From Fodinibius roseus (GTDB lineage: Bacteria; Bacteroidota; Rhodothermia; Balneolales; Balneolaceae): a stretch of 64,000 bases of DNA. Positions 7,456-63,362 of the stretch are shown in pieces. Below the pieces are notes generated by a model. The model was not told the origin of the DNA. It did not search any database and was given only the letters and a program-made list of their open reading frames with translations. The stretch covers positions 1-64,000 of the forward strand of contig NZ_FQUS01000019.1 of NCBI RefSeq assembly GCF_900129315.1, in the 5' to 3' direction. Made by a program: the position numbers and the translations under genes. Position 1 is the first letter of the stretch, and the number at the start of each line of letters is the position of its first letter.

Positions 7456-10400
7456 TTGCCGACTACTAACACATTAACAGTTTCGAAAGACTTCAACAGA
7501 ATTGGTATTTCCCTTGCGTCGCCGGAGACTATTCTCTCCCGTTCGCATGGTGAAGTCTTGACGCCCGAAACAATCAATTACCGCACCTTTAAACCGGAGA
7601 TGGACGGTCTTTTCTGTGAAAAGATCTTTGGCCCGGTTAAAGATTACGAATGCCATTGTGGCAAATACAAGCGAATACGGTATAAAGGGATCATCTGTGA
7701 TCGCTGTGGCGTTGAGGTAACGCGAAAAGCCGTTCGCCGGGAGCGTATGGGACATATTTCCCTGACGGTGCCGGTGGTTCATATCTGGTACTTCAAATCG
7801 TTGCCGAACAAACTGGCCTACCTGTTAGGCTATTCGTCCAAGAATTTAGAGAAGATCGTTTATTACGAGACCTATGTCGTAATGAATCCCGGCGTTGCAC
7901 GTGATCTCGGGTATAAAAAAGGCGATCTTATTTCTGAAGAAGAGTATTACGATATTCAGGAACAGCTGCCCGAAGATCAGTGGGAGATGGACGATGAAGA
8001 TCCCGACAAGTTTCGGGCCAAAGAAGGGGCGGATGCCATTGAAGAACTGCTGACGACGCAGGACCTCGATGAGCTTGCCTATCGACTGCGCTACGAGGCG
8101 CGGAACGAGACGTCCCAGATGCGGAAGAAAAAGAAGCTGAAACGACTGCAGGTTATCGAATCCTTCCGTGCGGCCAATCAGCACACGGAAAACCGTCCCG
8201 AGTGGATGGTGCAAAGTGTCATCCCGGTCATACCCCCGGAATTACGTCCGCTGGTACCACTGGAAGGGGGACGTTTTGCCACTTCCGATCTCAATGATCT
8301 GTACCGGCGTGTGATTATCCGAAACAACCGGTTGAAACGCCTGATCGATATCAAGGCGCCGGATGTCATCCTGCGCAATGAAAAACGCATGCTGCAGGAA
8401 GCGGTCGATTCGCTGTACGACAACTCCCGAAAATCCAATGCGGTACGGAATAACAACCGCCCCCTGAAATCGCTCAGCGATATGCTGAAAGGGAAGAGCG
8501 GCCGATTCCGTCAGAATCTGCTCGGGAAGCGTGTGGATTACTCAGGTCGTTCCGTTATTGTGGTCGGACCGGAGTTGAAGCTTCACGAGTGCGGTTTGCC
8601 GAAGGAGATGGCTGTTGAGCTCTATAAACCGTTTATTATCCGCCGATTGATTGAACGCGGTTATGTGAAGACGGTCAAATCAGCGAAAAAAGTAGTTGAC
8701 CGGCGAGACCCGGTGGTATGGGAGGTTCTTGAGAATGTCATTGACGGACACCCCATCCTGCTGAATCGCGCGCCTACGCTTCACCGTTTGGGTATTCAGG
8801 CATATCAGCCGGTCCTTATCGAAGAGAAGGCTGTGCGCCTTCATCCGCTCTCCTGTACGGCCTTTAACGCCGACTTTGACGGGGACCAGATGGCCGTACA
8901 TGTGCCACTGAGCCACGACGCCATACTGGAAGCCTCCGTACTGATGCTTGGCTCGCACAACATTTTGAGTCCCGCCAGTGGCGGACCTATTGCCGTACCG
9001 TCACAGGATATGGTTCTGGGTATTTACTATATGACCAAGATGGCCAACGACCAGAAAGGGGAGGGCAAGACATTTGCCAATACCGATGAAGTGCTTATCG
9101 CTTACGATCGGGATCGCCTGGACATGCATGCCAAGATCAATATCCGGATTCCCCGGACCAACGAAGATGGGGAGGAAGGATATGAGATTATCAAGTCTAC
9201 GACCGGACGAGTGATCTTCAACAGAATTCTGCCCGAAGAGATGGGCTACATCAACCGTACGCTCGGCAAGAAGGAGCTCCGTTCGCTGATTGGCGATATC
9301 CACTATAAGGTGGGGACCGCGCGCACCGCGGAATTCCTGGATGAAATGAAGAAGTTAGGCTTTGAGCAGGCTACGACCGGGGGACTCTCATTCAGTCTGG
9401 AGGATATCGTTATTCCGGATGAGAAGCAGAAGCTTATTGACAATACGCAGGATGAGGTCGCAGAGATCACTGATCGCTATGAAATGGGTTTTATCACCGA
9501 TAATGAGCGTTACAACCAGGTGATTGACAAATGGACCAGTACGACCAACCGTGTTTCGGAATCCCTGTTTAATGCATTGACGGCCGATCGCGAAGGCTTT
9601 AACCCGGTCTTTATGATGGCTGATTCAGGGGCGCGTGGTTCGAAAGAACAGATTCGTCAGCTGGGCGGCATGCGTGGCTTGATGGCCAAGCCTCAGAAAA
9701 GCTCGATGCAGGAAGGCAACGAGGTGATTGAGAACCCGATCCTGTCTTCTTTCAAAGAGGGACTGACGGTTCTTGAATACTTTATTTCTACCCACGGGGC
9801 TCGAAAAGGACTGGCGGATACGGCTCTTAAAACTGCTGATGCCGGTTACCTGACGCGTCGTCTTGTTGATGTTTCTCAGGATATTATAATCAACGAGAAA
9901 GATTGCGGGACGCTTCGCGGCATCAAGATGAAAGCCCTGAAGGATAACGAGGATGTCATTGAAAGCCTCGAGGATCGTATATTGGGACGTGTTTCACTGC
10001 ACGACATCTATGATCCTCTGACGGATGAGCTCATCTGTGAAGCCAATGATATGATCGATGAGGGTGTGGCCCAGAGCATTGCCGAAACGTCTATTGAAGA
10101 GGTGGAAATCCGTTCGGTGCTCACCTGTGAGACCGAGCGCGGTGTTTGCTCGAAATGCTACGGTCGTGATTTGTCACGCGGAACGATGGTTCAGGTAGGC
10201 GAAGCAGTGGGTGTTATCGCTGCCCAGTCTATTGGCGAACCGGGCACTCAGCTTACGCTTCGAACCTTCCACGTGGGAGGTACGGCCTCTCGCATGGAGT
10301 CGGAATCCCAGCATAAGGCGAAGTTCGAGGGCAAGGTGGAATTTGAGAATATTCGTGTCGTTGAGTACGACGACGGGGAAGAAATCCATGACATCGTCCT

Positions 10401-49236: not shown

Positions 49237-51765
49237 ATGAAAATATCAGACAGAAAAGAGATCGTAGTTGTCGGAAATGGAATGGTAGGATACAAGTTTT
49301 GCGAGAAACTTGTCGCAAAACAAGGTAATGAGGCGTTTAACATCACTGTTTTTGGAGAAGAACCCAGGCCAGCCTACGATCGCGTTCAGCTAAGCTCCTA
49401 CTTTGCGGGGGCAGATGAAGATGATCTCCAAATGGCCCCGGAGGAGTGGTACGAAGAGAAAGGTATTGCACTGTATACGGGTGAATTGGCTGTAGATTTG
49501 GACCGGAAACATAAAACCGTTACGTCGCAGAAAGGTAGAACCGTCACTTACGATACGCTCATCCTTGCCACCGGATCCAGTGCCTTTGTTCCACCCATAG
49601 ATGGAGTAGATAAAGACGGGGTCTTTGTCTATCGCACAATTGAGGATCTGGAAGCGATCACGAAATATGCTGCAGGAGCCAGCAAGGCTGCGGTCATAGG
49701 AGGTGGTTTGCTGGGTTTAGAGGCAGCTAAATCGGCTATGGACCTGGGACTGAAAACAAGTGTAATTGAGTTTGCTCCCCGCCTTATGCCCAGGCAGCTG
49801 GATGAAATTGGGGCCGGTGCTTTGAAAACAGCGCTCGAAGGGCTGGACCTGGAGATATTATTAAATAAAAATACAACCCTGATCGGGGGTAACGGGACGC
49901 CCGAATACCTCGATTTTGCAGATGGCGGCCACCTGGAAGCCGACATGGTGATCATATCCGCAGGTATTCGACCACGCGATGAGCTGGCAAAAAAAGCGGG
50001 TCTTGAAGTCGGAGAACGCGGGGGGATCATTGTTGACGACCAGTTGCAAACAAGCGATTCGGATATCTATGCTATTGGGGAGTCGGCTTTACACCGGGGC
50101 ATGATCTATGGTCTTGTAGCACCCGGATATGAGATGGCCGATGTAGTGGTAGAAAATCTTACCGGCGGCGAGGAGAAGTTTACGGAATTCGACATGTCAA
50201 CCAAGCTGAAATTGGTAGGCGTGGATGTAGCCAGTTTTGGAGACGCCTTTGGCGAATCGGAAGAAAACAGTAAGAAAGTCATAATAGACAACAAGGCGAA
50301 AGGTGTTTATAAGCGCATCAACGTCTCGGATGATGGCGATCGTCTGCTGGGCGGGATGCTTGTAGGCGATGCCGACGACTACAATATGCTTCTTCAGATA
50401 GCCCAAAACGGCTTTTCACTTCCGCCTGATCCGGTTGATCTGATTATTGGCGATCGCGATGAAGAATCGGGCGGGGGACAGAAGGTCTACGAATTTCCGG
50501 ATAACTCCATTATTTGTTCCTGTGAAAGTGTGACTAAAGGAGAAATTTGTGATGTCATTGAAGAAGAGGGCAAAGAGGATATCGACAGTATCAAATCGTG
50601 CACGAATGCGGGAACGGGCTGCAGCGGCTGCGTACCCATGCTCGATGACCTGCTGACCCAGTCTATGGAAGCGCGCGGCAGGGAGGTGCGCAAAGTAATT
50701 TGTGAGCATTTTGACTACACCCGCCAGGAGCTGTTTGATATCATCAAGGTGAAGGAGATACACACCTTTGATGAATTATTGGATGAAGTGGGACAAGGCG
50801 ATGGCTGTGAGAAATGTAAACCCGCTGTGGCTTCGTTGCTGGCAAGCGCTTTTAATGAGCACGTATTAGAAGAACGAGATACCATCCAGGATACCAACGA
50901 TCGATTTTTGGCCAATATTCAGCGCGGGGGTACCTATTCGGTTATACCCCGGGTGCCCGGCGGAGAGATTACTCCGGATAAGCTGATCACTATTGGCGAG
51001 CTGGCTAAAAAATACGGTCTTTATACTAAAATTACCGGCGGCCAGCGCATCAACATGATGGGTGCCCGTGTCGATCAGCTTCCCGATATCTGGGAGGATC
51101 TGATTGAGGCCGGTTTCGAAAGCGGCCACGCTTATGGCAAGGCGTTGCGAACGGTTAAGAGCTGTGTTGGTTCCACATGGTGCCGGTACGGACTGCATGA
51201 ATCGGTTTCTTTTGCTATTCGAATTGAAGAGCGATACCGTGGCCTTCGCGCACCACATAAGCTTAAGGGCGGGGTTTCCGGATGTGTGCGGGAATGCGCG
51301 GAAGCCCAGGCTAAGGACTTTGGTATAATCGCTACGGAAGAGGGCTGGAACCTCTTCGTATGCGGTAATGGCGGTACCAACCCCCAGCACGCCAAACTTC
51401 TGGCTACCGATCTCGATGAAGAAACGCTTATAAAATATCTGGACCGCTTCCTGATGTTCTACATTAAGACGGCCGAACATCTGAATCGTACGTCCACCTG
51501 GCTGAATAAAATGGAGGGCGGTCTCGGGTACCTGAAAAAGGTGGTGGTTGAAGACTCCCTTGGGATAGGAGAGGAGCTCGAAATAGAAATGCAGCAGCTG
51601 ATCAATGTCTATTCCTGCGAGTGGAAAGAAGTGGTCAATAATCCCGAACTCAGGGAACGGTTTACCCACTTTGTCAACTCCGATGATGTGGATCCCAGCG
51701 TAAAGTTCAAGGACTATCGCGAACAGCCCGTACCCGCACCCGCCGGCTGGAAAGAAAAGGGTTAG
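49237..51765 (+). CDS. nirB: Nitrite reductase [NAD(P)H] large subunit
   Basis: An 842-residue NirB. Order: FAD-binding N-terminus with VVVGNGMVGYKFCEKL, NAD(P)-binding segment with VIGGGLLGLEAAKSAMDLG (about 150), a BFD-type [2Fe-2S] domain CSCESVTKGEICDVIEEEG with TGCSGC (about 425-465), a second related BFD-like stretch ending GDGCEKCKP (about 525), and the siroheme/[4Fe-4S] module. The four cluster/siroheme cysteines are in SCVGSTWCRYG (about 641-650) and GCVRECAEAQ (about 683-690). It reduces nitrite to ammonium in six electrons at siroheme in the cytoplasm. nirD follows 18 bases later. Confidence 0.96.
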   Translation: MKISDRKEIVVVGNGMVGYKFCEKLVAKQGNEAFNITVFGEEPRPAYDRVQLSSYFAGADEDDLQMAPEEWYEEKGIALYTGELAVDLDRKHKTVTSQKGRTVTYDTLILATGSSAFVPPIDGVDKDGVFVYRTIEDLEAITKYAAGASKAAVIGGGLLGLEAAKSAMDLGLKTSVIEFAPRLMPRQLDEIGAGALKTALEGLDLEILLNKNTTLIGGNGTPEYLDFADGGHLEADMVIISAGIRPRDELAKKAGLEVGERGGIIVDDQLQTSDSDIYAIGESALHRGMIYGLVAPGYEMADVVVENLTGGEEKFTEFDMSTKLKLVGVDVASFGDAFGESEENSKKVIIDNKAKGVYKRINVSDDGDRLLGGMLVGDADDYNMLLQIAQNGFSLPPDPVDLIIGDRDEESGGGQKVYEFPDNSIICSCESVTKGEICDVIEEEGKEDIDSIKSCTNAGTGCSGCVPMLDDLLTQSMEARGREVRKVICEHFDYTRQELFDIIKVKEIHTFDELLDEVGQGDGCEKCKPAVASLLASAFNEHVLEERDTIQDTNDRFLANIQRGGTYSVIPRVPGGEITPDKLITIGELAKKYGLYTKITGGQRINMMGARVDQLPDIWEDLIEAGFESGHAYGKALRTVKSCVGSTWCRYGLHESVSFAIRIEERYRGLRAPHKLKGGVSGCVRECAEAQAKDFGIIATEEGWNLFVCGNGGTNPQHAKLLATDLDEETLIKYLDRFLMFYIKTAEHLNRTSTWLNKMEGGLGYLKKVVVEDSLGIGEELEIEMQQLINVYSCEWKEVVNNPELRERFTHFVNSDDVDPSVKFKDYREQPVPAPAGWKEKG

Positions 51766-51783: not shown

Positions 51784-52191
51784 ATGCCACATATCTTTAT
51801 CAAACTTTCAAACTTAAAGACCTATTCAGCCCGAACAATGCAAGCGCACGAGAATGTCAAGAAATGGTTCAAAGCGGCCCGAGTGGAAGATTTTCCCAAA
51901 AACGGGGGAGCCTGTGTTAAGTATAGAGACAAGCAGATTGCGGTCTTCAATTTTACCCGGCGCGGCGAGTGGTTTGCCTGCCAGAATATGTGTCCCCACA
52001 AAAAGGAGATGGCTTTGGCCCGTGGAATGATCGGAGAATCGAAGGGAGAGCCCAAAGTGGCATGTCCCTTTCATAAAAAAGCTTTCTCGCTTTGTTCCGG
52101 TGAAAATATTAATGGCGAAGAAGAACCGGTTACCACATATCCGGTGAAAGTGGAGGATGGATATGTATATATCGGGCTCACAACAGATTAA
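51784..52191 (+). CDS. nirD: Nitrite reductase small subunit, Rieske type
   Basis: A 135-residue protein; an ATG at 51838 would give 117 residues, nearer the family norm. The Rieske-type [2Fe-2S] ligands are complete: CPH in QNMCPHKKEMAL and CPFH in ACPFHKKAFSL, so this NirD likely binds a cluster, unlike the cluster-free E. coli NirD. It pairs with NirB in NAD(P)H-dependent nitrite reduction. It lies 18 bases after nirB in the same orientation and is followed by a hairpin and moaCB. Confidence 0.88.
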   Translation: MPHIFIKLSNLKTYSARTMQAHENVKKWFKAARVEDFPKNGGACVKYRDKQIAVFNFTRRGEWFACQNMCPHKKEMALARGMIGESKGEPKVACPFHKKAFSLCSGENINGEEEPVTTYPVKVEDGYVYIGLTTD

Positions 52192-52262: not shown

Positions 52263-52370
52263 ACCTGTTCACTGTTCTTTTCAGGGGGGGACGCTTGGCA
52301 TAGCCGTTCAGGGGGATTAAAGATCGGGAAATGTGATAGCACAATTCGAACCTTAAAATAGTTGAAAATT

Positions 52371-53324
52371 ATGAGAGATATTTCTGGCAAGAGTTCTTCG
52401 CTGCGCTCCGGTAAAGCGCTTTCCGTTGTCAGTTGCAGCCGCCCGACACTGGAGCGGGTGAAGTCAGATAGGCTTCCCAAGGGTAACTTGTTGGATGTAG
52501 CCCGTTCGGCCGGCTTTTTGGCCTCCAAGCAGACCCATCACCTGATACCACACTGCCATCCGGTTTCGATTGATGCGCTGGATATCTCTTATAGCTATAT
52601 CGAAGACGGTAATTGCAGAGAGGATATCGGAAAGCTGGAGGTAGCATTTGGAATTGCTGTTATCGCCGGGGGAAAGTCGATCGGACGAACCGGTATTGAG
52701 ATGGAGTTGCTGACGGCGGTTTCCATCAGCGCCCTAACGATTTATGACCTCCTGAAGCCACTCGGAGATGAAGTCGAAATCAGGACGACGCGCCTGCTCA
52801 ATAAAACAGGCGGCAAAAGCAATTTGAAGAAGGTGGTAGGGAAACAAAATAAAGCTGCCGTGCTCATTTGTTCGAACTCTGTTGCCGCCGGTCGAAAAGC
52901 GGACCGCGCGGGACCGATTATTGAACAAATGCTCCGGGAGCATTATGCTGATATCGTTGATTTTAAGGTGATACCTGACCGCCGGGAAGCCATCCAGGCC
53001 CAGCTCAAAGAGTGGGCGGATAGGAATATCCCATTTGTATTTACGGTGGGTGGCACCGGGCTTGGACCGGATAACAGGGCGGTCGATGCGGTCCGTGGGA
53101 TCCTCGAGCGAATAACCCCCGGGGTCGTGGATGCTATGGAACTGCACGGGCTGCAAAGAACTCCGCTGGCCATGATGTCGCGACTGACTGCCGGAATCCT
53201 GAAAAGTACGCTTATAGTGACGCTGCCCGGCAGTTCCGACGGACTGCGTCAAAGCCTCGGAGGTATCCTGCCGGGAGTATTCTATGCCAGGAAAATGCTA
53301 CGGCCCGCCAGGATAAAAAACTGA
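52371..53324 (+). CDS. moaCB: Bifunctional MoaC-MoaB molybdenum cofactor protein
   Basis: A 317-residue fusion from ATG 52371 (an in-frame TTG at 52362 is also possible). The N-terminal half is MoaC: LIPHCHPVSIDALDISY and GRTGIEMELLTAVSISALTI are its signatures; it completes cyclic pyranopterin formation with MoaA. The C-terminal half (about residue 160 on) is MoaB/MogA-type, with VLICSNSVAAGRKADRAGPI and FVFTVGGTGLGPDNRAVDAV, which adenylylates molybdopterin. Fusions of this kind are known. It lies between nirBD and narK. Confidence 0.9.
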   Translation: MRDISGKSSSLRSGKALSVVSCSRPTLERVKSDRLPKGNLLDVARSAGFLASKQTHHLIPHCHPVSIDALDISYSYIEDGNCREDIGKLEVAFGIAVIAGGKSIGRTGIEMELLTAVSISALTIYDLLKPLGDEVEIRTTRLLNKTGGKSNLKKVVGKQNKAAVLICSNSVAAGRKADRAGPIIEQMLREHYADIVDFKVIPDRREAIQAQLKEWADRNIPFVFTVGGTGLGPDNRAVDAVRGILERITPGVVDAMELHGLQRTPLAMMSRLTAGILKSTLIVTLPGSSDGLRQSLGGILPGVFYARKMLRPARIKN

Positions 53325-53489: not shown

Positions 53490-54851
53490 ATGAAAACTAC
53501 CGATACCAACAAAGCGACAAGTATTAATATTTTTAGTTTTGCGGCCCCGCACATGCGGACCTTTCATCTTTCCTGGATCTCGTTTTTTCTCTGTTTCTTT
53601 GGCTGGTTTGGGATTGCACCGCTGATGGCTGTTATACGTGAGGAACTGGACCTGACCCAGTCACAGATTGGGAACACTATTATCGCTTCAGTGGCTATTA
53701 CGGTGATTGCCCGGATATTTATCGGCCGGTTTTGTGATAAATATGGTCCGCGTCTTACCTATGCCGTCTTGCTGATTTTGGGATCCATTCCCGTTATCGG
53801 CATCGGATTGAGCAATAGTTATGAAACGTTTCTGCTGTTCAGATTGGCTATCGGTGTGATCGGCGCCTCCTTTGTGATAACCCAATACCACACCTCGGTT
53901 ATGTTTGCGGATAACGTTGTGGGCACTGCCAATGCCACGACCGCGGGGTGGGGGAATATGGGGGGAGGAGCTACCCAAGTGATTATGCCGCTCATTTTTG
54001 CCGGATTCGTATTTCTGGGTTTCGAGGAGTCCTCGGCATGGAGGTATGCGATGATCGTTCCGGGAATAGCCATGATTGTATTGGGGTTCCTCTACTACCA
54101 TTATACAACCGATACGCCCGAAGGAAACTTCTCTGAGCTGGAAGTGGATCCCGTAGCAGAGCTTGAGGGCGAAGAGGAGGAAGCTGATGTATCAATGAGG
54201 GAAGTGATGAAGGATTATCGGGTGTGGAGCCTGTTTGTAATCTATGGCGCCAGTTTTGGTATTGAACTGACGATTAATAATATCGCGGCTATTTATTACC
54301 ACGATTATTTTTCGCTGGACCTGCAGACCGCCGGACTCATTGCCGGAATGTTTGGCCTGATGAATATATTTGCCCGTTCGGCCGGTGGATATCTGGGCGA
54401 CACGTTCGGTATTAAATTTGGGCTCAAGGGCCGGGTTCGATTCCTGTTCGTTATGTTATTGTTAGAAGGGGTGGCCCTTATGCTCTTTTCCAGTATGGTG
54501 ACACTTGCACTGGCTATCGGAACGATGATTTTCTTTAGTCTCTGCGTACAGATGGCGGAAGGAGCCACCTATTCGGTCGTTCCCTTTGTGAACCGCAAAG
54601 CTGTTGGGGCGGTTTCGGGCATTGTGGGAGCCGGGGGCAATGCCGGCGCCGTTATGGCCGGATTCCTGTTTAAATATGAGTCTTTAGGCTATCCCGAAGC
54701 GCTGTTTATTATCGGGGGTGTGGTTACGGTCGTTTCCTTTCTCTCTTTTACCATTCGTTTCTCCATGGCCGATGAAAAAGAGGCGAGATACGAGCTGGAA
54801 GAGGCATTGTCAGAACTGGAACCCGAGTTAGAGCCGGCCTATGCAGATTGA
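53490..54851 (+). CDS. narK: Nitrate/nitrite transporter (NNP family)
   Basis: A 453-residue, 12-span major facilitator of the nitrate-nitrite porter family. The nitrate signatures are visible: GWGNMGGGATQVIMPLIF in span 5 and VSGIVGAGGNAGAVMAGFLF in span 11. An acidic cytosolic loop (about residues 215-240, VDPVAELEGEEEEADVS) lies between the halves. It imports nitrate, probably with protons, or exchanges nitrate and nitrite. It stands 165 bases after moaCB and 108 before the fused nitrate reductase, the natural uptake partner. Confidence 0.92.
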   Translation: MKTTDTNKATSINIFSFAAPHMRTFHLSWISFFLCFFGWFGIAPLMAVIREELDLTQSQIGNTIIASVAITVIARIFIGRFCDKYGPRLTYAVLLILGSIPVIGIGLSNSYETFLLFRLAIGVIGASFVITQYHTSVMFADNVVGTANATTAGWGNMGGGATQVIMPLIFAGFVFLGFEESSAWRYAMIVPGIAMIVLGFLYYHYTTDTPEGNFSELEVDPVAELEGEEEEADVSMREVMKDYRVWSLFVIYGASFGIELTINNIAAIYYHDYFSLDLQTAGLIAGMFGLMNIFARSAGGYLGDTFGIKFGLKGRVRFLFVMLLLEGVALMLFSSMVTLALAIGTMIFFSLCVQMAEGATYSVVPFVNRKAVGAVSGIVGAGGNAGAVMAGFLFKYESLGYPEALFIIGGVVTVVSFLSFTIRFSMADEKEARYELEEALSELEPELEPAYAD

Positions 54852-54959: not shown

Positions 54960-57900
54960 ATGGATCAAACCGGAACCGAAAAATATAAATCTACTTGTTC
55001 CTATTGTGGAGTAGGATGTGGTGTTATTGTGGAAAAGAACGTCGGGGGACAGATTGAAATTACCGGCGATGAATCACATCCGGCGAACAAGGGGATGCTC
55101 TGTTCCAAGGGAATGAACCTGCATTATACGGTGTCCGATCATTCCGACCGGTTACTCCATCCACAGATGCGATGGGCGCGGGGTCAGCCCCGCAGACGCG
55201 TAGACTGGGATACGGCCCTGGATCGGGCGGCGGCGGTGTTCGGTACCTTTATTGATAAATACGGTCCCGATTCGGTAGGCTTTTATGTCTCCGGGCAGTG
55301 CCTTACCGAGGAGTACTATACGGTCAATAAGCTGGCCAAAGGATTTGTAGGCACCAACAATATCGATACGAACTCGCGGCTCTGCATGAGTTCAGCCGTA
55401 GCCGGGTACAAGAAATCCCTGGGGGAGGATTCGCCGCCGATCAGCTACGATGATATCGAGCTGGCCAACTGCTTCTTCATAACCGGTGCCAATCCCGCCT
55501 GGTGCCATCCTATCCTTTTTCGCCGCATTGAAGCCCATAAAGAGAAGGATCCGGATGTTAAAGTTATCGTGGCCGATCCCCGGGAGACGCAATCCTGCTC
55601 GATTGCAGATCTTCACCTTCAGCTGAATCCGGGGACCGATACGGTCTTATACCATGCCATCGCGCGCTGCCTGATTGAAAACGGCCGAATTGACGAGTCG
55701 TTTATCGAAAAGCATACGGATGGATTTGAAGAGTTCAGAGCCCGGGTTCTGTCACAACCGCTGGAGGAAGCAGCCGACACCTGTGGTTTGCCAGTACGGG
55801 AAATTAAGCAGGCTGCCCGATGGATTGGAGATGCCAACGGCTTTATTTCAATGTGGGCGATGGGGCTTAACCAGAGCGTGGATGGTACGGCTAAAAACCT
55901 GGCGCTCATTAATCTTTCCCTCATTACGGGCCAGATCGGAAAACCCGGTGCGGGACCTTTTTCACTGACCGGGCAGCCCAATGCTATGGGGGGACGCGAG
56001 GTGGGAGGGATGGCCAATCTGCTTTCCGCGCACCGTGATCTCGGTAATCCGGAACATCGCCGGGAAGTGGCGGACCTTTGGAATGTCAATTCAGTCCCCG
56101 CAGAGCCCGGATATACGGCAACCGAAATGTTTGACGCCCTGCGAAGCGGGGATATGAAAGCGATCTGGATCATTTGTACCAATCCGGTGGTGAGCCTTCC
56201 TCATTCCGCCATGGTCGAAGAAGCACTTGAAAAAGCCAAATTTGTAATCGTCCAGGATATCTCACAGGATTCCGCGACCGTTGACTATGCCGACCTGGTG
56301 TTGCCGGCTGCGGGCTACCTGGAGAAGGAGGGTACGATGACCAACTCCGATCGCCGGATCAGCTATTTGAATAAAGTGGTGGAAGCACCTGGCGAGGCTC
56401 TACCGGACGCTGAGATATTGTGTCGTTTTGCCCGGAAGATGGGCTACCGTGGATTTGATTTTGATACGGCCGCTGACATATTCGCTGAGCATTGTAAGCT
56501 CACCAGGGGAACCAATATTGATATCAGCGGGTTGAGTCATGAGTATTTAAAGCAAAATGGAACGGTACAGTGGCCCTTTCCCGAGGGCGCCCAGGAAGGA
56601 ACGCGGCGTTTGTTTACGGATCACGAGTTCTATACCCAGAATGGACGTGCTAAGATTCATACTCAGGATAAAGGCAGACCCGAACGCCCGGGTGAGAATA
56701 ATCCCCTGGTGTTGACGACGGGGAGAATCCGTGATCAATGGCACACAATGACCCGCACCGGCAAGGTGAGCCGGCTTAATCAGCATATTGATGAAGCGTA
56801 TGTAGACATACATCCTGAGGATGCCCAAAAGCGGGGTATTGACAATGAAGATGTGGTTGAAGTAACGAATGAACGGGGAGAGGTGCGTGTGCGAGCTATA
56901 CACTCAGAGGCCGTTAAACCCGGTGTCGTATTCATTCCGATGCATTGGGGGAAGGTGCTCCAAAAGGATTTCCCGCGAGCGAATAATTTGACCAGCGACA
57001 GGGTAGATCCGGTTTCGAAGGAACCTGACTTTAAATTCTCAACCGTTGAGGTATCAAAATTTAACAAAGAGCATGATAAGGTCATCGTTGTCGGGGCCGG
57101 GGCCGGAGGTTTCCAGTTTGTCAATAGTTATCGCGAATACAACGCGGAAGACGAGGTAGAAGTATTCTCCAAAGAGTATGACTGGTTTTACAACCGGGTG
57201 ATGCTTCCTGACTATATCAGTGGCGAGTCGGATTGGATGAAGCTGAAAAAAATGAAGTCCGATAAGCTCGTAGAACTCGATATCCTTATGCATGAGGGCA
57301 TCAGCGTGGAGCGTATAGACCCCGAAAAACAACTTATTACGGATTCGAATGGCGAAGATCATTCCTACGACAAGCTGGTGCTCGCTACCGGAAGTCGTGC
57401 TAATTTCCCGAAAGGTATTCCCCGTTTACCGGGGGTGTTTACCATCCGTCATCGCAGTGATGCTGAAGATCTGATAGAGTACACAAACAAAGCAGGCCAT
57501 GTCGTAATTGTAGGCGGGGGACTCCTTGGATTAGAGATGGCAGCTGCACTCCAAAAGGTTGACATATCAGTTACACTGGTGCATCGCAATCCAAGGCTCA
57601 TGGAGCGACAGCTCGATCCAACTGCGAGTGAACTGTTATATGAACACATACGGGACTGTGGCATTAATGTGATTTTTAACGATGAAATTGAGCATCTCTC
57701 TGAGCGGGATGATGGGATTCATGCGTCATTGAAAAGCGGTAAGTTCCTGGATTGCAAGGCGGTGGTCTATGCGATAGGCACTCGTCCGAATATCGGTCTG
57801 GCAAAAGAAGCAGGTCTGGAATGTAAGCGTGGCGTAGTGGTTAATGAGCATCTGCAAACCAGCGATCCCCATATTTATGCTATTGGAGAGATTGCGGAGT

Positions 57901-58463
57901 ACAGGGGATCCATGAATGGAATCACGGCTGCAGCTGAAGAGCAAGCGGATATTGTCGCTTCCTATATCTCTGGTGACCTTTCCAGCACCTATTCGGGTAC
58001 GGTTTCTATGAATATCTTGAAGTTTCCCGACCTCGAGCTTTGCTCGTTGGGCATGACAGAAATTCCCGATGGTGGATCCGAATATGAAAAAATTGTACTG
58101 GTGGATAAAAGCGAGCGATTTTATAAAAAATGCATAGTCTGTCAGGACCGATTGGTAGGCGCCATTTTGATGGGAGATAAGACGGAGTTCAATGAGTTTC
58201 GCCGGTTAATGGATGAACGAATGGAGTTATCTGACCGGCGAAAAGAATTGTTGCGTTCAGGGCAGTCACTGACACCGCTGAAAGGAGAGATCGTCTGTTC
58301 CTGTAATAACGTAGGGGACGGGAACCTGCGAGAGACCATTCGTGAGGGAAGTGATGATTTTAAGGAGCTTTGTGACCGAACCGGGGCGGGAACAGGTTGT
58401 GGAAGCTGTAAGCCCGAAGTAAAAGCAATCCTTGAACAGGCTACAGTGAAATTAAAGCAGTAG
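54960..58463 (+). CDS. nasA: Assimilatory nitrate reductase fused to FAD/NAD(P)H and BFD domains
   Basis: A 1167-residue multi-domain enzyme. The N-terminal catalytic part (about 1-690) has the [4Fe-4S] motif SYCGVGCG with Cys13, Cys16, Cys20 and Cys48, the probable Mo-ligand Cys142 in NSRLCMSSAVAGYKKSLG, and the C-terminal Mo-binding domain with TRTGKVSRL and QKRGIDNEDVVEVTNERGEV. From about 705 follows an FAD/NAD(P)-binding module (VIVVGAGAGGFQFVNSY; VIVGGGLLGLEMAAAL near 845) like the N-terminus of NirB, then a BFD [2Fe-2S] domain (about 1110-1167, CSCNNVGDGN and TGCGSC). It should pass electrons from NAD(P)H to nitrate inside one polypeptide in the cytoplasm. Confidence 0.92.
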   Translation: MDQTGTEKYKSTCSYCGVGCGVIVEKNVGGQIEITGDESHPANKGMLCSKGMNLHYTVSDHSDRLLHPQMRWARGQPRRRVDWDTALDRAAAVFGTFIDKYGPDSVGFYVSGQCLTEEYYTVNKLAKGFVGTNNIDTNSRLCMSSAVAGYKKSLGEDSPPISYDDIELANCFFITGANPAWCHPILFRRIEAHKEKDPDVKVIVADPRETQSCSIADLHLQLNPGTDTVLYHAIARCLIENGRIDESFIEKHTDGFEEFRARVLSQPLEEAADTCGLPVREIKQAARWIGDANGFISMWAMGLNQSVDGTAKNLALINLSLITGQIGKPGAGPFSLTGQPNAMGGREVGGMANLLSAHRDLGNPEHRREVADLWNVNSVPAEPGYTATEMFDALRSGDMKAIWIICTNPVVSLPHSAMVEEALEKAKFVIVQDISQDSATVDYADLVLPAAGYLEKEGTMTNSDRRISYLNKVVEAPGEALPDAEILCRFARKMGYRGFDFDTAADIFAEHCKLTRGTNIDISGLSHEYLKQNGTVQWPFPEGAQEGTRRLFTDHEFYTQNGRAKIHTQDKGRPERPGENNPLVLTTGRIRDQWHTMTRTGKVSRLNQHIDEAYVDIHPEDAQKRGIDNEDVVEVTNERGEVRVRAIHSEAVKPGVVFIPMHWGKVLQKDFPRANNLTSDRVDPVSKEPDFKFSTVEVSKFNKEHDKVIVVGAGAGGFQFVNSYREYNAEDEVEVFSKEYDWFYNRVMLPDYISGESDWMKLKKMKSDKLVELDILMHEGISVERIDPEKQLITDSNGEDHSYDKLVLATGSRANFPKGIPRLPGVFTIRHRSDAEDLIEYTNKAGHVVIVGGGLLGLEMAAALQKVDISVTLVHRNPRLMERQLDPTASELLYEHIRDCGINVIFNDEIEHLSERDDGIHASLKSGKFLDCKAVVYAIGTRPNIGLAKEAGLECKRGVVVNEHLQTSDPHIYAIGEIAEYRGSMNGITAAAEEQADIVASYISGDLSSTYSGTVSMNILKFPDLELCSLGMTEIPDGGSEYEKIVLVDKSERFYKKCIVCQDRLVGAILMGDKTEFNEFRRLMDERMELSDRRKELLRSGQSLTPLKGEIVCSCNNVGDGNLRETIREGSDDFKELCDRTGAGTGCGSCKPEVKAILEQATVKLKQ

Positions 58464-58642
58464 AATCAATGAACAGGAAGAAGTAAAAAAGTGAAAAGAA
58501 AGGAGTTTTAATCGGAGAAGTGAAGGTTTCAACTTAAAGCTGAGCAACCAAAGAATAACTAATAACCCGTTGGCTGATAACAAAAAACCAAAATTGATCC
58601 TTGACACGAAATATAAAAACGTCAGTAACTGCTAAATCTGCT

Positions 58643-60118
58643 ATGAAAAAAACTGATCTCATCCGAGCGTTTATTCCCGGTGGCGTTTTAACCCCCAGGG
58701 ACTTAAAAAAGATTATCGGCATTGCCCGGGATCTGGGGAATGAGGTGGTTCATTTCGGGTCGAGGCAGGATATTATGTTTCCGGGTGATGAGGTAGATCA
58801 AAAGAAACTGGATGAGGAGTTTGGTTCGATTCAGACGAATTACGAATGGAGTGGACGGCGGTATCAGAATATCGTTACATCCTATGTCGCGGTGGATTTA
58901 ATGGCAAGTACTTCATGGGTCACTTCGGGAACCTATTTTAATGTGCTTGAGTACTTTGACTATCGTCCCCGGTTAAAAATAAATATTACAGATCCCAAAC
59001 AGAGTCTGGTCCCGTTGTTTAACGGACAACTTAATTTTGTAGCTTCCGACCATGAGGACTACTGGTATCTGTTTGTAAAGTTCAATTCCTTTGGTGAGCG
59101 GCAGCGATGGCCGGTTTTGGTTTACAGCCGGGATATAGGAAAGATAGCCGCTGCCATAGAAGAGTATTATTTTAGATCTGAAAAGGAAAGTATTGCATCT
59201 GCCAAAAAATTATTTGAAGTAATAAATAAGAAGGTGGGTACTAATAGCAGGACCATTGACACGAATTTGGATTATCCCTCCGAGCCCTTTCCCTATTATG
59301 AAGGATTAAATAAAATGGCCGGTAACAAGTACTGGCTGGGGTTGTATTGGCGAAACAATCGCTATACCATCTCTTTTTTAGATAAGGTATGCAATCTTTG
59401 TGAGCAGACGAATTGTGGAAGAATCATCATTACCCCCTGGAAGTCCTTTATCGTTAAGGACATTTCAGAGGAAGACCGGTCGAAGTGGGAGCTCTTGTGT
59501 GGTAATAACGGGATCAATCTGAGACACTCTTCCCTCGAGCTTAACTGGCATTTGCCCGTACTTGATGATTCAGCTCTGAAGTTGAAAAAATACCTGGTTG
59601 ATGTGTTTGACAGGCACGATATCAGTACGTATGGACTAACGTTTTCTATCAAGGAGCCGCCGGTTAACCTGTTTACTTCTGTTGCTATTCTTACACAGCC
59701 GAGTATCCGGCTGTTTGGAAAATATGACATTTTAAAGCGTTATAATGTGTTTTACAGCAAGAATTTTGATCCCAATGAGGAGTATTATATCCCATTTGGA
59801 ATGTATGTCTCCAAGAGGAATCTCCCGGAAGTTCTGATGAAGCTGAGCAGGATATACTACGAAGAAATGAATAAGGAAAAGGAAGATAGAATATGGGAGA
59901 AGCAGGAAGGGAAAACGTTTTTGAAAACCGTATTTCAATGTTCGGATTGTATGACGACCTATGATGAACGATACGGGGAGCCGAAGTCAGGTATTACGGA
60001 GGGGATCGCTTTTCATGAACTTCCGGGCAGCTATCACTGTCCTGTGTGTGAGGCTCCCAAGTCTTCATTTCAGGAAGTCGAAATGGACCTGGGAGAAGAA
60101 GTGAGTCGGGAATTTTAA
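58643..60118 (+). CDS. Siroheme-reductase-like fold with C-terminal rubredoxin
   Basis: A 491-residue protein from ATG 58643 (an in-frame TTG at 58601 is less likely). The N-terminal part resembles the ferredoxin-like half of nitrite/sulfite reductases (FIPGGVLTPRDLKKIIGIA, VVHFGSRQDIMFP) and a second such half contains IIITPWKSFIVKDI. But the usual siroheme/cluster cysteine motifs are absent; the cysteines present are CNLCEQTNC (about 255-263). The end (about 435-491) is a typical rubredoxin with CSDCMTTYDERYGEP and YHCPVCEAPKSSF. It lies 179 bases after the nitrate reductase and 20 before moaD. I infer an electron-transfer or assembly role in nitrate assimilation; the exact role is unknown. 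Confidence 0.72.
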   Translation: MKKTDLIRAFIPGGVLTPRDLKKIIGIARDLGNEVVHFGSRQDIMFPGDEVDQKKLDEEFGSIQTNYEWSGRRYQNIVTSYVAVDLMASTSWVTSGTYFNVLEYFDYRPRLKINITDPKQSLVPLFNGQLNFVASDHEDYWYLFVKFNSFGERQRWPVLVYSRDIGKIAAAIEEYYFRSEKESIASAKKLFEVINKKVGTNSRTIDTNLDYPSEPFPYYEGLNKMAGNKYWLGLYWRNNRYTISFLDKVCNLCEQTNCGRIIITPWKSFIVKDISEEDRSKWELLCGNNGINLRHSSLELNWHLPVLDDSALKLKKYLVDVFDRHDISTYGLTFSIKEPPVNLFTSVAILTQPSIRLFGKYDILKRYNVFYSKNFDPNEEYYIPFGMYVSKRNLPEVLMKLSRIYYEEMNKEKEDRIWEKQEGKTFLKTVFQCSDCMTTYDERYGEPKSGITEGIAFHELPGSYHCPVCEAPKSSFQEVEMDLGEEVSREF

Positions 60119-60138: not shown

Positions 60139-60381
60139 ATGAGATTGAATGTAAAGCTTTATGGAATAACGAAAGAGATCGTCGGTCAAACAGAATTGAA
60201 GTACTGCCTTTCTTCATCGTCGGATGTATCTTCGTTACGAAAAGAACTTAAAAGGGAATATCCTGAACTCGGCCGGCTTACATCGTTGCTGGTTGCCGTC
60301 AATGGGGAGTATGCCCCCCGGGATTTAGTATTGAATGAACAGGACGAGGTAGTCCTCATCCCCCCGGTAAGCGGAGGATGA
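60139..60381 (+). CDS. moaD: Molybdopterin synthase sulfur-carrier subunit
   Basis: An 80-residue ubiquitin-like protein ending in the required Gly-Gly (IPPVSGG), which is thiocarboxylated to bring sulfur to molybdopterin synthase. The start is MRLNVKLYGITKEIVG, and the core strand NGEYAPRDLVLNEQDEVVL is typical of MoaD/ThiS. It is followed 77 bases later by moaE, its partner subunit. Confidence 0.9.
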   Translation: MRLNVKLYGITKEIVGQTELKYCLSSSSDVSSLRKELKREYPELGRLTSLLVAVNGEYAPRDLVLNEQDEVVLIPPVSGG

Positions 60382-62035: not shown

Positions 62036-63199
62036 TCAGGAAGTATGAGCTAATTGGGCGAGTGCCTGCTCATATTGGCGGGGATTATTGGCATTCATGA
62101 GCTCCCGGGGATCAGGAGGATCCAATAGCTGAATGTCAGCGTTGATTAATGCCTTCCGGGGACAGGAGTAACCCATACCCAGAAACGTTAGAAGTACCTG
62201 ATAACTTTTGGGCTCCCAAATGGTAATGAGGGGCTCCGGGAATCTGCTTTCGTTCTTTTGGAACGCCGTAGCAATTTTTGAAGGATTCCGGTTTTCTACC
62301 AGAGCCTGCAAGGTTTGGGGAGATAATAACGGCAGATCACAGGCCACTGCCAGGAAGGCCGAGTTTGGATACGCTCTAAAAGCTGACAGCAGGCCTCCAA
62401 GGGGACCCATTTCAAGAAAAGAGTCCGTAATGATGTTATAATTCCCCGGAATGCCCTTTTTCTGATCTTTCCGGCATGAGAGAAACACCTCATTGCAATA
62501 ATCCTCCATTAGTTCATAGAGATACAGGCGCTGCTGTTTACCATGGTAGTCCAAGCGCGTTTTATCGGTATGCATTCTCGTACTTTTTCCACCGGCCAAT
62601 ACCAATCCTTTCAACGAGGGTGTGGCAGCCTCTAAAAGTTGATCTATTCGACTGACAATTTTCCCTGTTTCCTCAATTTTAAAAACGGGGATCCGGTCTA
62701 TCTCTTTTATATTTTGTTTCACGTAATCAGGTACATGGGTTACTCCTTCCTGCAATACCATTATTTTGGTATTGGTTAGACGCTCCGGGGCTACCGGCTT
62801 TCGCTGGTCTATGACCGTAAGCTGGTTTTGGGCATCAAAATGATTGCCGTTGAGAAGTATCAGGTCTGCTTCATTAAACATTGATCTGGCCTGATAGTTA
62901 TCCAGTCCCTTTCTACAATTGAACTTTTGGGCGGATTCTGTTCGAATATGGACCAGGTCCGTATCCGTGTACGTTTTTGCACGGTCCTGATCAGAATTAG
63001 TCTCGTTTGAATGCTCTGCATCTACATAACCGATTCGGTACTTTTGGGATAACGATTTGCTAAGTTGAGCGGCAAGCTTTTGAACGGCCGGACATGTAGT
63101 GCCGGCAATAGCCAGCTCGTTTCTGCCGAATGTACCGTGGTCCGCTTTAGCTAAAACAGTGTGTTTTTGATGAGTTTGCCTGTTCTTATTCCTTGGCAT
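62036..63199 (-). CDS. mobA: Molybdenum cofactor guanylyltransferase with N-terminal MobB-like part
   Basis: A 387-residue protein counted from ATG 63199, with AAGGA about 12 bases upstream; in-frame ATGs farther up would add up to 23 residues. The C-terminal 200 residues are a MobA nucleotidyltransferase: GLVLAGGKSTRMHTDKTRLDY, then MGPLGGLLSAF and FLAVACDLPLLS. The N-terminal part (about 15-185) looks like a MobB-type P-loop protein that has lost its GTP-binding P-loop (GTTCPAVQKLAAQ stands where GxxGxGK is expected). MobA joins GMP to molybdopterin for enzymes of the DMSO-reductase family, such as this nitrate reductase. Confidence 0.82.
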   Translation of the reverse strand: MPRNKNRQTHQKHTVLAKADHGTFGRNELAIAGTTCPAVQKLAAQLSKSLSQKYRIGYVDAEHSNETNSDQDRAKTYTDTDLVHIRTESAQKFNCRKGLDNYQARSMFNEADLILLNGNHFDAQNQLTVIDQRKPVAPERLTNTKIMVLQEGVTHVPDYVKQNIKEIDRIPVFKIEETGKIVSRIDQLLEAATPSLKGLVLAGGKSTRMHTDKTRLDYHGKQQRLYLYELMEDYCNEVFLSCRKDQKKGIPGNYNIITDSFLEMGPLGGLLSAFRAYPNSAFLAVACDLPLLSPQTLQALVENRNPSKIATAFQKNESRFPEPLITIWEPKSYQVLLTFLGMGYSCPRKALINADIQLLDPPDPRELMNANNPRQYEQALAQLAHTS

Positions 63200-63362
63200 T
63201 ATCTGTTGTTGTTCCTTGGCATTGTTGGGAATCATAGTATATGTAAAAACTATTTTTCCAGCAGGCACGATACAAAATATTAATTTAGTTAGTAAAATAT
63301 TAATTATATCAATAATTTGTTAACTTAATTAGTAATTTAATTAAATTAATTATTATCTGTTT

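Follow-up and report, generated by a model that had tools for sequence, protein, structure and literature searches.

RubNIR, a siroheme-reductase-like scaffold without cofactor ligands fused to rubredoxin, is encoded beside the assimilatory nitrate reductase of Fodinibius roseus

Assimilatory sulfite and nitrite reductases such as CysI (SiRHP) and NirA, which combine the Pfam domains PF03460 and PF01077 in a two-half fold, carry their cluster cysteines in the second half only. The substrate of sulfite reductases is held by four arginine and lysine residues, which were described as perfectly conserved (PMC10229431). A nitrite reductase (NIR) fused to rubredoxin was described in prasinophyte algae, where the NIRFU protein consists of a plant-type NIR, a C-terminal rubredoxin and a ferredoxin-reductase/cytochrome b5 reductase-like domain, with 53% identity between its NIR part and that of plants (PMC5344333). 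This part is presumably catalytic. Rubredoxins (PF00301) are also found in fused form, including in flavorubredoxin NorV and class III HCP, and the participation of rubredoxin in nitrate reduction was reportedly observed decades ago in Clostridium perfringens. In the nitrate operon of Aquirufa, a gene is listed as "rubredoxin" together with those of a nitrate reductase, NirBD and an MFS transporter (PMC11861422).

Here we describe RubNIR, a protein of Fodinibius roseus encoded on contig NZ_FQUS01000019.1 (RefSeq assembly GCF_900129315.1), of which positions 1 to 64,000, referred to as the window, were analyzed. RubNIR shares with CysI/SiRHP and NirA the complete two-half fold in the same order, and the ferredoxin-like half domain was detected by Pfam in all of its homologues, but the four cofactor-binding cysteines are gone, the counterparts of R153, K215 and K217 are replaced, PF01077 is undetected and a rubredoxin is added at the C-terminus. 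By its function-defining residues RubNIR is outside the siroheme reductases, whereas by fold it is descended from them. The nearest described architecture is that of NIRFU, in which a NIR fold is likewise followed by a C-terminal rubredoxin; the NAD(P)H flavoprotein that forms the third module of NIRFU would be supplied to RubNIR in trans by the nitrate reductase. RubNIR differs from NIRFU in that its chain lacks the cofactor ligands as well as a flavin domain, and that its gene lies beside that of a nitrate reductase. Its rubredoxin domain has the standard fold and the four cysteines of PF00301, but unlike other rubredoxins, NorV and class III HCP included, it stands behind a siroheme-reductase scaffold and is linked to nitrate assimilation. 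Members of the family are labelled by this domain: the RefSeq "rubredoxin" WP_232563077.1 of Spirosoma oryzicola is a RubNIR, and the Aquirufa "rubredoxin" gene appears to be another, although the label fits only the last ~50 of ~480 residues. A literature search limited to papers available without subscription returned no study of the family.

The cluster in the window runs in the order cobA (on the opposite strand), nirB, nirD, a moaC-moaB fusion, narK, a fused nasA-FAD-BFD gene (its product is hereafter called Nas), RubNIR, moaD and moaE, and is followed by hemD and mobA on the other strand (Table 1). The initial annotation had placed the RubNIR frame correctly between the nitrate reductase and moaD. 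The frame is intact from its ATG start to its stop codon, and an alternative TTG start upstream, at 58601, would lengthen the protein to 505 residues. Two other proteins of the cluster have unusual arrangements. The product of 52362-53324, which has a TTG start, unites MoaC and a MoCF_biosynth (MoaB/MogA-like) domain in one chain, and the MobA-like protein of 62036-63268 (-) carries about 200 extra N-terminal residues without a Pfam match, perhaps a degenerate MobB part.

Table 1. Positions of RubNIR, its parts and neighboring genes in the window
Feature	Position	Strand	Remark
NirB, siroheme nitrite reductase large subunit	49237..51765	+	intact
NirD-like Rieske protein	51784..52191	+	
NarK-type nitrate/nitrite transporter (MFS)	53490..54851	+	
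Nas, fused assimilatory nitrate reductase: Mo/[4Fe-4S] NasA, FAD/NAD(P)H domain with Rubredoxin_C, BFD [2Fe-2S]	54960..58463	+	proposed RubNIR partner
Rubredoxin_C module of Nas (PF18267)	58008..58220	+	proposed rubredoxin docking/reduction site
RubNIR, assimilatory sulfite/nitrite-reductase fold without cofactor ligands plus C-terminal rubredoxin	58643..60118	+	491 aa
RubNIR scaffold part, two SiR-like halves without siroheme/[4Fe-4S] ligands	58643..59887	+	residues 1-415
CxxC of RubNIR	59390..59401	+	residues 250-253; conserved in 107/110 homologues
Rubredoxin domain of RubNIR	59924..60082	+	residues 428-480; Cys 433/436/466/469
moaD	60139..60381		

Family searches recognized the two ends of RubNIR. 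Pfam assigned the NIR_SIR_ferr half domain to residues 7-52 (E 6e-14, in two stretches) and rubredoxin (PF00301) to residues 431-476 (E 2.4e-13). Across 73 homologues, PF03460 was found in all and rubredoxin in 70, and none matched PF01077, the NIR_SIR 4Fe-4S domain. No NCBIfam equivalog was reached at its cut-off; outside the rubredoxin part the best scores were those of CobG (17 bits) and CysI (16 bits, cut-off 757). Identity with CobG, precorrin-3B synthase, was rejected on this basis (TIGR02435, 17.2 bits where 234.8 are required). The homologue from Fodinibius salsisoli, of the same genus, is 75% identical. Since 110 homologues could be aligned and share about 50 near-invariant residues, RubNIR is not a chance reading frame.

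The kinship with SiR and NirA over the full length is visible only by fold and by profile-profile comparison. A structure model built on the 73 homologues (mean pLDDT 89.7, pTM 0.82) was compared with the known enzymes, as the initial annotation had suggested, and matched both over the full length of the scaffold. Residues 6-419 were superimposed on residues 81-556 of E. coli SiRHP with Z 28.9 and an rmsd of 3.4 over 384 aligned residues; the values were Z near 26 for plant nitrite reductases and Z 25.4 for NirA of M. tuberculosis (Foldseek 1.2e-17), and Foldseek agreed with the structural comparison on the resemblance to SiR/NirA. Profile-profile comparison with CysI/NirA gave a probability of 95.6% over residues 6-290, and each half preferred its own counterpart in the enzyme, with 90% for the N-terminal pair and 62% for the C-terminal pair, against 20% and 0.3% for the crossed pairs. 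A search of PDB sequences with a rubredoxin-free RubNIR profile gave nothing useful (best E 0.36). Taken together, the fold match and the pairing of the halves argue that the scaffold, as modeled, is the complete two-half assimilatory SiR/NiR fold with its halves colinear with those of CysI/NirA, and neither a fragment nor a copy of the shorter siroheme part of NirB. The twofold layout noticed in the initial annotation, and the descent from a siroheme sulfite or nitrite reductase, are thus supported by computation; for the ancestor, named there as a sulfite reductase, a NirA-type nitrite reductase is an equal possibility.

The ligands of the catalytic center have been lost from this fold. RubNIR has eight cysteines, at positions 250, 253, 258, 286, 433, 436, 466 and 469. 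As the assimilatory enzymes hold cluster cysteines only in the second half, nothing could be concluded if they were missing just from the first. In the alignment, CysI C434, C440, C479 and C483, which bind the [4Fe-4S] cluster and the siroheme iron, would map between residues 286 and 433, where RubNIR has no cysteine and the 110 homologues have no cysteine column, so the missing motifs that had been remarked on are indeed missing. The four substrate-holding residues, which we take to be R83, R153, K215 and K217 in CysI numbering, have their matches in the E. coli CysI sequence. By profile alignment only R83 has a counterpart in RubNIR, R8 (arginine or lysine in 100/110), and R153, K215 and K217 correspond to a variable Q75, to L111 and to I113; R41 of RubNIR pairs with CysI R117. 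NirA enzymes have asparagine at the K217 position, so the change at this site is not telling by itself. With the siroheme and cluster ligands and most of the anion-binding residues lost, RubNIR cannot use the siroheme mechanism, and judged by its sequence it is very unlikely to be a catalytic siroheme enzyme. Other residues were retained. Invariant in 110/110 homologues are R41, Q42, N76, N114, Q120 and N131 of the first half and R237, K267 and E299 of the second, in which H295 is present in 109/110.

The remaining cysteines of the scaffold were first read as a CxxCxxxxC cluster. Its CxxC, residues 250 and 253, is kept in 107 homologues, with serine at one of the two positions in the other three, whereas Cys258, the third cysteine of CNLCEQTNC, occurs in 4/110. 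The CxxC thus stands and the cluster of three does not. The suggestion that another metal is bound at CNLCEQTNC was rejected on conservation across the 110 homologues, given the unconserved third cysteine and the three homologues with serine at the first or second.

The C-terminal rubredoxin, by contrast with the siroheme site, is complete, as had been proposed. Besides the Pfam match, residues 428-479 were superimposed on rubredoxins with Z 9.5 and an rmsd of 1.1 (to 1rdg), with the two CxxC knuckles of this fold, and Cys 433/436/466/469 are present in 109/110 homologues; the exception is L030 in genome G202, which lacks the whole domain. When PF00301 was searched in 21 RubNIR genomes, it was found exactly once in 18, in every case in RubNIR itself, which is therefore the sole rubredoxin in 18/18; in the other 3/21 it was undetected, and their RubNIR domain is shortened or lost. 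RubNIR is also the only rubredoxin found in the genome of the window. There, Rubredoxin_C (PF18267) was detected only in Nas (75.9 bits) and NirB (37.2 bits). The scores of this module were 71-77 bits in Nas proteins associated with RubNIR and 56-69 bits in those without it, groups that are poorly separated. Rubredoxin_C is also found in NirB-type flavoproteins for which no use of rubredoxin is known, and this counts against an electron path between Nas and rubredoxin. Nevertheless, a rubredoxin without another visible client, next to a flavoprotein of the rubredoxin-reductase type, makes Nas the likeliest partner.

RubNIR was encoded by at least 589 stretches of the GTDB genome collection, and the best 80 of these, all from Bacteroidota in the GTDB sense, were inspected. 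In all 80 named loci, RubNIR lies directly downstream of the fused NasA-FAD-BFD gene on the same strand, with a median gap of 20 bp; the genes overlap in 19/80, often by 4 bp. In the plasmid collection, full-length RubNIR was likewise confined to Bacteroidota, and no relative turned up when viral contigs were scanned. In one genome (L121), a 269-aa nucleotidyltransferase-like frame stands between nas and RubNIR (7627-8433, +); the loop of its rubredoxin domain is shortened and the four cysteines are kept.

Two nearly identical samples of the phylum were used for co-occurrence, 395 genomes for RubNIR and 390 for fused Nas. Full-length RubNIR was found in 29/395 and high-scoring fused Nas in 27/390, and in all 27 of the latter RubNIR lies within 1 kb of Nas and a NirB of ~840 aa is encoded. 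The two further RubNIR genomes are G437, which lies outside the second sample and has NirB, and G202, in which neither fused Nas nor NirB was found. The G202 copy (L117 45-1553) opens 44 bases from a contig end and has no rubredoxin; possibly it is a remnant in decay, left when nitrate assimilation was lost, or else an assembly edge. It is the single exception met in a search for homologues without a link to nitrate genes, and the dedication to nitrate assimilation proposed at first is borne out by the 80 loci and the 27 genomes. Five genomes (G283, G247, G137, G099 and G227), which belong to the same GTDB class as the window and which we read as Rhodothermia-like, lack RubNIR and encode a fused Nas that is more distant (420-490 bits), so that fused Nas is able to work without it. 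Their clusters contain a NirA-type enzyme and a CysJ-like flavoprotein in place of NirB, and the cysteine motifs of NirA are intact in the four that could be read in frame. Nearly all of the RubNIR genomes checked also encode NirB and another PF01077 reductase, with G202 the only one to lack NirB, and nitrite can therefore be reduced in these genomes without RubNIR acting as an enzyme.

Pairwise distances from 19 loci containing all three proteins showed that RubNIR follows Nas when NirB is accounted for (partial r 0.815) and does not follow NirB when Nas is accounted for (partial r -0.427); both values were stable under jackknife. As adjacency and co-transfer by themselves could produce such a correlation, it is taken as supporting evidence only. 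The mean distance was 0.95 for RubNIR and 0.51 for Nas, about twice as fast.

The SiR-like fold without iron ligands, the sole rubredoxin and the near-constant adjacency to nas suggest that RubNIR probably serves nitrate assimilation as a dedicated electron-transfer subunit. From its sequence, the role of electron carrier or docking protein proposed in the initial annotation is plausible. Our main reading, to which we give a probability of roughly 55%, is that RubNIR serves as the dedicated redox subunit of the fused Nas, a dead siroheme-reductase scaffold carrying a working rubredoxin, and the most fitting description is a retired reductase scaffold that has become a rubredoxin carrier. The N-terminal 415 residues would have been kept for docking onto Nas, and the tethered rubredoxin would be the working part, passing single electrons between the flavin and the metal centers of Nas. 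Electrons from NAD(P)H would enter Nas at its FAD domain, which has a C-terminal module of the NADH:rubredoxin-oxidoreductase type, pass to the rubredoxin iron of RubNIR and return to the iron-sulfur clusters and molybdenum of Nas for the reduction of nitrate, and the nitrite would go on to NirBD. The binding to Nas, the direction of the electrons and the docking role of the scaffold are what we infer from the genes and the model. The need for an extra carrier is not obvious, as the redox chain of Nas is already complete, in 84/84 RubNIR-associated copies. Its cluster cysteines are intact in these 84 and in most of the five RubNIR-free copies, where the missing letters are confined to one badly framed N-terminus and one position, and when clusters with and without RubNIR were compared, the cofactor sites of their Nas showed no difference that matters.

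Several other roles have to be weighed against that of a Nas subunit. RubNIR could serve NirB, either by feeding electrons to NirBD or as a bridge between Nas and NirB that hands over toxic nitrite, with the ancestral nitrite-reductase surface reused. The three proteins occur together in the same 27 sampled genomes, fused Nas accompanied by NirA instead of NirB has no RubNIR, and NirB too has a flavoprotein module of the Rubredoxin_C type. We still regard this as unlikely, because NirB is often more than 10 kb away from RubNIR or on the opposite strand while Nas is adjacent in 80/80, because, with Nas controlled for, the distances of RubNIR do not follow those of NirB (partial r -0.43), and because only one of the four anion-binding residues of SiR has a counterpart. 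An assembly factor that inserts cofactor into Nas, or a redox sensor that regulates it, would fit the place of RubNIR among molybdenum-cofactor genes in the window, its tight coupling to nas and its rapid evolution, at about twice the rate of Nas (0.95 vs 0.51); but in other genomes the moa genes are not regular neighbors, we know of no Nas-specific assembly factor with the SiR fold, and only a small chance is left to a role of this kind as opposed to that of a turnover carrier.

It is also conceivable that the scaffold binds siroheme, another tetrapyrrole or another ligand without the [4Fe-4S] cluster, through what is conserved of the first-half cleft together with a new axial ligand, for instance H295, and performs chemistry, for example on nitrite or NO, with electrons from the rubredoxin. 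The invariance of R41 (CysI R117), Q42, N76, N114, Q120, N131, R237, K267 and E299, and that of H295 in all but one homologue, speaks for this, as does the siroheme-synthesis gene of the cluster. Folding or docking explains the invariance equally well, though, the siroheme genes are accounted for by NirB, and the positions of SiR R153, K215 and K217 and all four cysteines are lost, so that we consider it improbable. Much the same low odds apply when the proposal is put more broadly, namely that R41, Q42, N76, N114, Q120 and N131 with H295, K267 and E299 bind a tetrapyrrole or a nitrogen oxide cluster-free, fed by the rubredoxin, or that the scaffold is a device for handing nitrite from Nas to NirB. 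The least likely of the rivals, which we can hardly credit, is an active siroheme nitrite or sulfite reductase with unusual ligands: the similarity of fold to SiR/NirA is all that favors it, and it is opposed by the cysteine-free cluster region, the replacement of three of the four active-site basic residues, the absence of PF01077 from the 73 homologues and the presence of NirB in all 27 sampled genomes that have both RubNIR and fused Nas.

RubNIR is found in hundreds of genomes, almost always beside an assimilatory nitrate reductase, and is labelled only as rubredoxin. If it were essential as a subunit, current annotations would misdraw the path that electrons take in nitrate assimilation in a major bacterial group of marine and soil habitats, and function predictions that ask only for NasA and NirB would be incomplete. 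It also offers a clear case of a siroheme reductase that has apparently become a non-catalytic scaffold and, together with the NIR-rubredoxin fusions of algae, a second use of rubredoxin in nitrogen-oxide assimilation.

Two further features were observed in nitrate clusters outside the window. In Rhodothermia-like clusters (L112 10580-14400 (-), L114, L115 and L116), a similar N-terminal stretch, PFTPEQRAWLNGFLAG, is common to NirA, a separate short protein and the CysJ-like flavoprotein; it could be a shared docking segment of the kind seen at the start of CysJ. Next to narK, an outer-membrane protein annotated as "alginate export family" in L125 (5434-6957) has similar-looking frames in L118 (6015-7559), L122 (14471-15841, -) and L123 (5919-7496), and is possibly a nitrate-specific porin.
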